Both the position numbers and the translations under genes were made by a program. A DNA stretch of 56,110 nucleotides from Anaerobranca gottschalkii DSM 13577 (GTDB taxonomy: Bacteria > Bacillota > Proteinivoracia > Proteinivoracales > Proteinivoracaceae): the NCBI RefSeq assembly GCF_900111575.1, contig NZ_FOIF01000008.1:1-56110 (forward strand), read 5' to 3'. Below, piece after piece: positions 20,485 through 21,572 of this stretch (position 1 is the stretch's first letter; every line of letters begins with the position of its first letter). The notes below the pieces were generated by a model. The model saw nothing but the letters and a program-made list of their open reading frames with translations. It was not told the origin of the DNA and made no database searches.

Positions 20485-21572
20485 CTATAGATTAACAACT
20501 TTTCCTTTAACTTTATAAACATATGCTAAGACTTCTGCCACCGCTTTAAAAAACTCAAAGGGGATAGGTTCACCTATTTCCACAGCTTTGTAAAGGCTTC
20601 TAGCTAAGTGAACATCTTCATACAAAACTATATCATGTTCTTTAGCAATTTCTTTAATTTGTTGAGCAATTAGATCCTGTCCTTTTGCTATAACAATAGG
20701 AGCTTGTCCAGAGTTAATGTCATACTTCAGTGCTACAGCAAAGTGGGTAGGGTTAGTGATAACCACATCAGCTTTAGGAATTTCTTGCATCATCCTTCGA
20801 CTTGCCAATAACCTTTGCCTTTCTTTGATTTTTCCCCTGATTTGTGGATCACCTTCCATTTGTTTGTACTCTTCTTTAATCTCATGTTTACTCATTTTTA
20901 GATTATTTTCATATTCCCACCAACTATAGAAATAGTCTAATATAGCGACAAATATCATAACAGCTCCACTGTAGATTGCTAAGGAGAATACTGTAGAACC
21001 AATGGTAGAAATAATTGTCAATAAATCCATTTCCATTATATTAGGGATATTTCTTATATGTTTTTTAATATTTATATAGACCATATAACCTATGGCTCCA
21101 ATTTTCAATAGTGATTTTAATAACTGAACTATACTTCTTTTAGAAAACAGTCTTTTAAATCCTTCAATTGGATTGATTCTACTTAATTTCATTTTTAATG
21201 GTTCAATGGTAAATAACGGTCCTACTTGGATATAATTAGCAGTTATTCCAATCAATAATACTCCAAATCCTACAGGTCCAAAGAGTATTAAAAATTCTTC
21301 AAATATTAGTAAAGACAGCCTGCCTGTCCAATGAATAGTAATTTCTTCTGTAAAATAATAAATTAATACATACTCAATTAAACCTATTATCCTTTCGAAA
21401 ATAAAGGGGATCCAGATTCTTAGAATAACAAAGGCTATTAGTAATACTAAGGCTGAACTAACTTCCGGAGACTTTAGAACCTGACCTTTTTTTCTCGCCT
21501 CTTGCCTTTTTTAGGGGTAGCCTTTTCTGTTTTTTCCTGAGAAAATAGCTGAAGATTAAATTCAAAGGTCAT
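20485..21572 (-). CDS. flhB: flagellar export switch protein FlhB, interrupted by a one-base frameshift
   Basis: FlhB sets the substrate switch of the flagellar type III exporter and cleaves itself at NPTH, present here in VVITNPTHFAVALKY. The true start is ATG at 21572, after AGGGGG; the first 21 codons (MTFEFNLQLFSQEKTEKATP) read well. In the A6 run at 21507-21512 the frame fails, reaching TAA soon after. Inserting one base restores RQEARKKGQVLKSPEVSS and the whole rest of the protein, including four membrane segments, giving 362 residues. The visible downstream ORF alone begins at a TTG at 21255. Sequencing error, A-tract slippage or a real mutation are all possible. Confidence 0.9.

Follow-up and report, generated by a model that had tools for sequence, protein, structure and literature searches.

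Bacterial flagellar genes can be interrupted by one-base changes in short tracts. Campylobacter jejuni evolving in the laboratory lost motility when single bases changed at short A/T tracts within its flagellar genes; such frameshifts arose in flhB, flhA, fliP, flgS and flgR, the flhB tract being 7–8 bases long (PMC7677240). Phase variation has been described for flhA of Campylobacter coli and fliP of Helicobacter pylori (PMC2831843; PMC7677240) and, as cited in PMC2831843, for flhB of Pseudomonas putida, which carries a poly-G tract. Rescue of a gene that looks broken is also documented: the secretion gene tssM of Citrobacter rodentium appears interrupted at a run of eleven A near a stop codon and is rescued by transcriptional slippage, with measured frameshifting of 20–25% (PMC4256274). 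In bacteria, slippage-prone runs are typically nine bases long, and eight in some cases (PMC1088944). On the ribosome, the heptamer A_AAA_AAG is made highly shift-prone in Escherichia coli by the sole tRNA-Lys, and it serves as a programmed site in dnaX (PMC5009743).

Here we describe an interrupted flhB in Anaerobranca gottschalkii DSM 13577. The window, the whole 56,110-nucleotide stretch of DNA that was analysed, carries on its minus strand a long flagellar and chemotaxis operon in which flhB lies between fliR and flhA:

22356–21577, minus strand: fliR, intact
21572–21570, minus strand: ATG of flhB, 4 bases past the fliR stop codon
21572–21474, minus strand: 5′ open reading frame of flhB as present, 32 codons and a TAA (21476–21474)
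21512–21507, minus strand: run of six A (A6), where the frame departs from that of relatives
21510–20485, minus strand: remainder of the FlhB coding sequence, open in another frame, 341 codons and a stop; its first ATG, GTG or TTG is a TTG at 21255
21492–21486, minus strand: A_AAA_AAG, a canonical −1 ribosomal slippery heptamer that the shifted frame reads in phase
20754–20743, minus strand: NPTH autocleavage motif of FlhB, present (ITNPTHFAV), read from the sequence and its translation
20470–18428, minus strand: flhA, intact

The A6 run occupies exactly 21512–21507, between ACC CCT and GGC. Translation from the ATG yields MTFEFNLQLFSQEKTEKATPKKGKRREKKVRF and ends at the TAA after 32 codons, so that flhB lacks the one continuous frame from the start that characterizes the FlhB/SctU export-gate family; a main-frame stop occurs only upstream of the junction. 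The remainder is FlhB. It matches PF01312 with about 410–414.5 bits (E = 8.7e-123) over profile positions 11–335 of 335, FlhB chains in the PDB align with it over residues 2–335, nearly the full chain length, and the NPTH motif of the family is in place. An internal start was rejected: ATG, GTG and TTG are absent before 21255, and initiation at that TTG would omit the beginning of the membrane domain. Elsewhere in the window, the genes for flagella and chemotaxis are open, as are two flagellin-family genes on another contig. A one-base frameshift at A6, within an flhB whose remaining frame and neighbours are intact, had been proposed by a sequence-only reading of this DNA, and these observations bear it out.

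Among the genomes sampled, the interruption is confined to this one. A family match was found in 48 of 61 genomes sampled, and neither the same-genus genome nor any other genome among the sample's matches has an FlhB with an internal stop. A recurrent flhB break across the phylum was likewise rejected, there being no stop among the matches listed, which were the higher-scoring ones. A disabling change that is absent from close relatives is what a pseudogene in the making would display. Alignment to the same-genus flhB gives 97% identity before the tract and 90% after it with a single base missing between these flanks, which places the break beyond chance. The same-genus gene reads CCT AAA AAG AGG CAA GAA and the gene here CCT AAA AAA GG CAA GAG, that is, nine bases after CCT in the relative and eight here. 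Because the same-genus gene has AAA AAG AGG, shortening of an A7 run is not the only possible event, and the earlier claim that A7 is needed was overstated. From the alignment, a seven-A run that lost one A and a AAAAAGAGG that lost its G are about equally good explanations.

Selection on the gene indicates that any loss is recent. The open part of flhB has a dN/dS of 0.075, within the range of neighbouring genes (fliP, 0.070; fliM, 0.068; flgB, 0.069). Against three outgroups, 3 changes fall on the flhB branch of this genome and 5 on that of the same-genus relative. The normal dN/dS, together with the lack of excess changes on this branch, rules out an old pseudogene. The earlier suggestion that flhB is meant to work therefore stands to this extent: the gene has recently been under normal purifying selection.

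In our judgement, these data rank a loss of function first, an assembly error second and a meaningful rescue third. The best reading, to which we give about an even chance, is that the sequenced strain carries a recent loss-of-function mutation in flhB. One base would have been lost from an A-rich stretch by replication slippage or simple deletion, a 32-residue peptide would be made instead of FlhB, and the export gate of the flagellum, deprived of this component, should fail, leaving the cells non-flagellated or nearly so. We infer from the sequence comparisons that the base is absent in the cells, that its loss arose recently, for example in laboratory culture, and that this phenotype follows. 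So read, the flhB case fits a known kind, one-base tract indels in flagellar genes, and would be ordinary. As in C. jejuni, a one-base indel in an A/T tract breaks a flagellar gene, flhB included; in C. jejuni, however, the changes were seen directly in evolving populations (PMC7677240), whereas here there is one consensus sequence, from another phylum, with a six-base tract. The flhB of P. putida DOT-T1E also has its frameshift near the 5′ end, in a tract of poly-G that is variable (as cited in PMC2831843), whereas the tract here is of a different base and is known from one sequence. A search of the literature on Anaerobranca motility returned no usable motility data. If the mutation is real, the strain would move weakly or not at all although the rest of its flagellar operon is intact, a prediction of importance to users of this genome as a motility reference.

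The possible, though less probable, alternative is a sequencing or assembly error, in which flhB is intact in the cells and the record is one base short. Consistent with this idea, the flagellar operon is otherwise open throughout and constraint on FlhB is not relaxed, the genome is a draft of 110 contigs with some N gaps, and indel errors fall in A-rich sequence. The tract, however, is just six bases long, and the rest of the genome does not behave as an error-prone record would. As a control, 844 kb of stretches of this genome were compared with 1.35 Mb of stretches of the same-genus genome, giving 604 orthologous gene pairs and about 554 kb of coding sequence; because a stricter frameshift filter missed flhB, whose 5′ part spans only 65 bases, the comparison was repeated with a looser one. 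When genes open in the relative are counted, these pairs yield a single clear internal one-base frameshift in this genome, that of flhB, and one further clearly disrupted gene, the SAM-methyltransferase-like gene with an 8-base deletion described below; the remaining events on the list map close to the start or end of a gene, to a tRNA cluster or to genes of which the relative has the shorter version. An error-prone assembly predicted many homopolymer frameshifts, yet none besides flhB is clear and internal, even though the compared genes hold many A/T runs of 6–8 bases. This assembly is thus not indel-prone. The sequencing error allowed for by the sequence-only reading is accordingly still possible and is now less favoured, given almost no other one-base frameshifts in the sampled genome. 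The split between loss of function and error rests on this low frameshift rate and is a matter of judgement rather than measurement. The flhB case is mainly a caution against calling this gene or organism defective from one draft.

A third explanation, which we consider unlikely, is that flhB is frameshifted in the DNA and useful FlhB is nevertheless made by −1 ribosomal slippage at A_AAA_AAG (21492–21486). FlhB is needed in few molecules per flagellum, which speaks for this explanation. The heptamer sits within an A7 run (21493–21487), and the shifted frame reads GAA AAA AAG, placing it exactly in phase four codons ahead of the stop, as in a programmed −1 frameshift gene. A −1 shift there would bring translation back into the FlhB frame and give a product of normal length in which a few residues differ; the predicted product has KKGKRREKKGQV in place of the relatives' KKRQEARKKGQV, a change that would affect conserved residues. 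All lysine tRNA genes found among 54 tRNA matches are UUU, the condition for strong shifting in E. coli (PMC5009743). The earlier reading had overlooked this heptamer, a likelier site for any ribosomal rescue than A6. It had allowed for slippage on A6, which is improbable on the ribosome, because A6 lies out of phase with a canonical slippery heptamer, and improbable for RNA polymerase, because such short runs are not its usual sites.

Several observations speak against a device that evolved for rescue. The sequence 3′ of the heptamer holds no significant stimulatory structure (z = −1.2; 27 of 200 shuffles fold equally well or better). An A_AAA_AAG in the equivalent phase occurs in 16 of 64 intact relatives because the conserved RKKG must be encoded, and this sharing through coding constraint indicates that the flhB heptamer is not an evolved device. 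Across 663 sampled genes, in-frame A_AAA_AAG occurs 105 times, 1.00 of the expectation from shuffled synonymous codons. No two-frame flhB arrangement was seen in relatives, in that no internal stop occurs in the matches of the 61-genome sample or among the matches listed phylum-wide. A programmed frameshift gene was therefore rejected, on conservation in relatives and on downstream structure. The likeness to E. coli dnaX extends to the in-phase A_AAA_AAG and, as far as found, to tRNA-Lys(UUU) as the only lysine tRNA; dnaX, however, is a programmed site (PMC5009743), whereas flhB has no significant 3′ structure and owes its motif to coding constraint. We read the heptamer as a probably fortuitous ribosomal leak, which may be weak. 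That such slippage keeps flhB working at a low FlhB level that limits the flagella per cell seems very improbable; if rescue does occur, flhB would be a natural example of a gene that looks dead and yet survives through a slippery motif imposed by coding constraint. Slippage during transcription of the A6 or A7 run is less likely still. It has a precedent in C. rodentium tssM, a secretion gene likewise seemingly interrupted at an A tract close to a stop codon, but the eleven A and measured frameshifting of tssM (PMC4256274) contrast with six or seven A in flhB, short of the nine or eight bases of slippage-prone runs (PMC1088944).

In the sampled open reading frames of at least 150 amino acids in this genome, lysine pairs following an A fall lower against expectation than lysine pairs following another base. 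A_AAA_AAA is depleted (0.67 of expectation) and AAA_AAG after a base other than A is enriched (1.61), suggesting that coding sequence avoids long A runs.

The least credible explanation, that the flhB tract is a contingency switch turning flagella off and on by gain or loss of a base, has precedents in P. putida flhB, C. coli flhA and H. pylori fliP, but lacks the long or conserved hypermutable tract of a contingency locus: the run has six bases and is interrupted at the equivalent place in the same-genus flhB, runs of this length are common here (1,177 A6, 463 A7 and 100 A8 in 724 kb of sampled open reading frames), and mutS and mutL are both open.

A hypermutator was also considered and set aside, because mutS and mutL are open in this genome and it is the same-genus assembly in which mutS is frameshifted. 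In that reverse direction, about ten one-base frameshifts were found in 555 kb of the same-genus assembly, several of them in runs. The mutS event (contig C3 of that genome, near 49621) lies in a T8 run; the ortholog here (contig C7, 8742–11285) has T9 and is open. With its ten or so frameshifts, the same-genus genome could come from a mutator strain, or its assembly could be error-prone. Beside mutL on contig C7 of A. gottschalkii, at about 6565, a SAM-methyltransferase-like gene, PF04445 in the same-genus relative, is split into two frames by an 8-base deletion. This is not a homopolymer error, and real gene-breaking changes thus occur in this genome.
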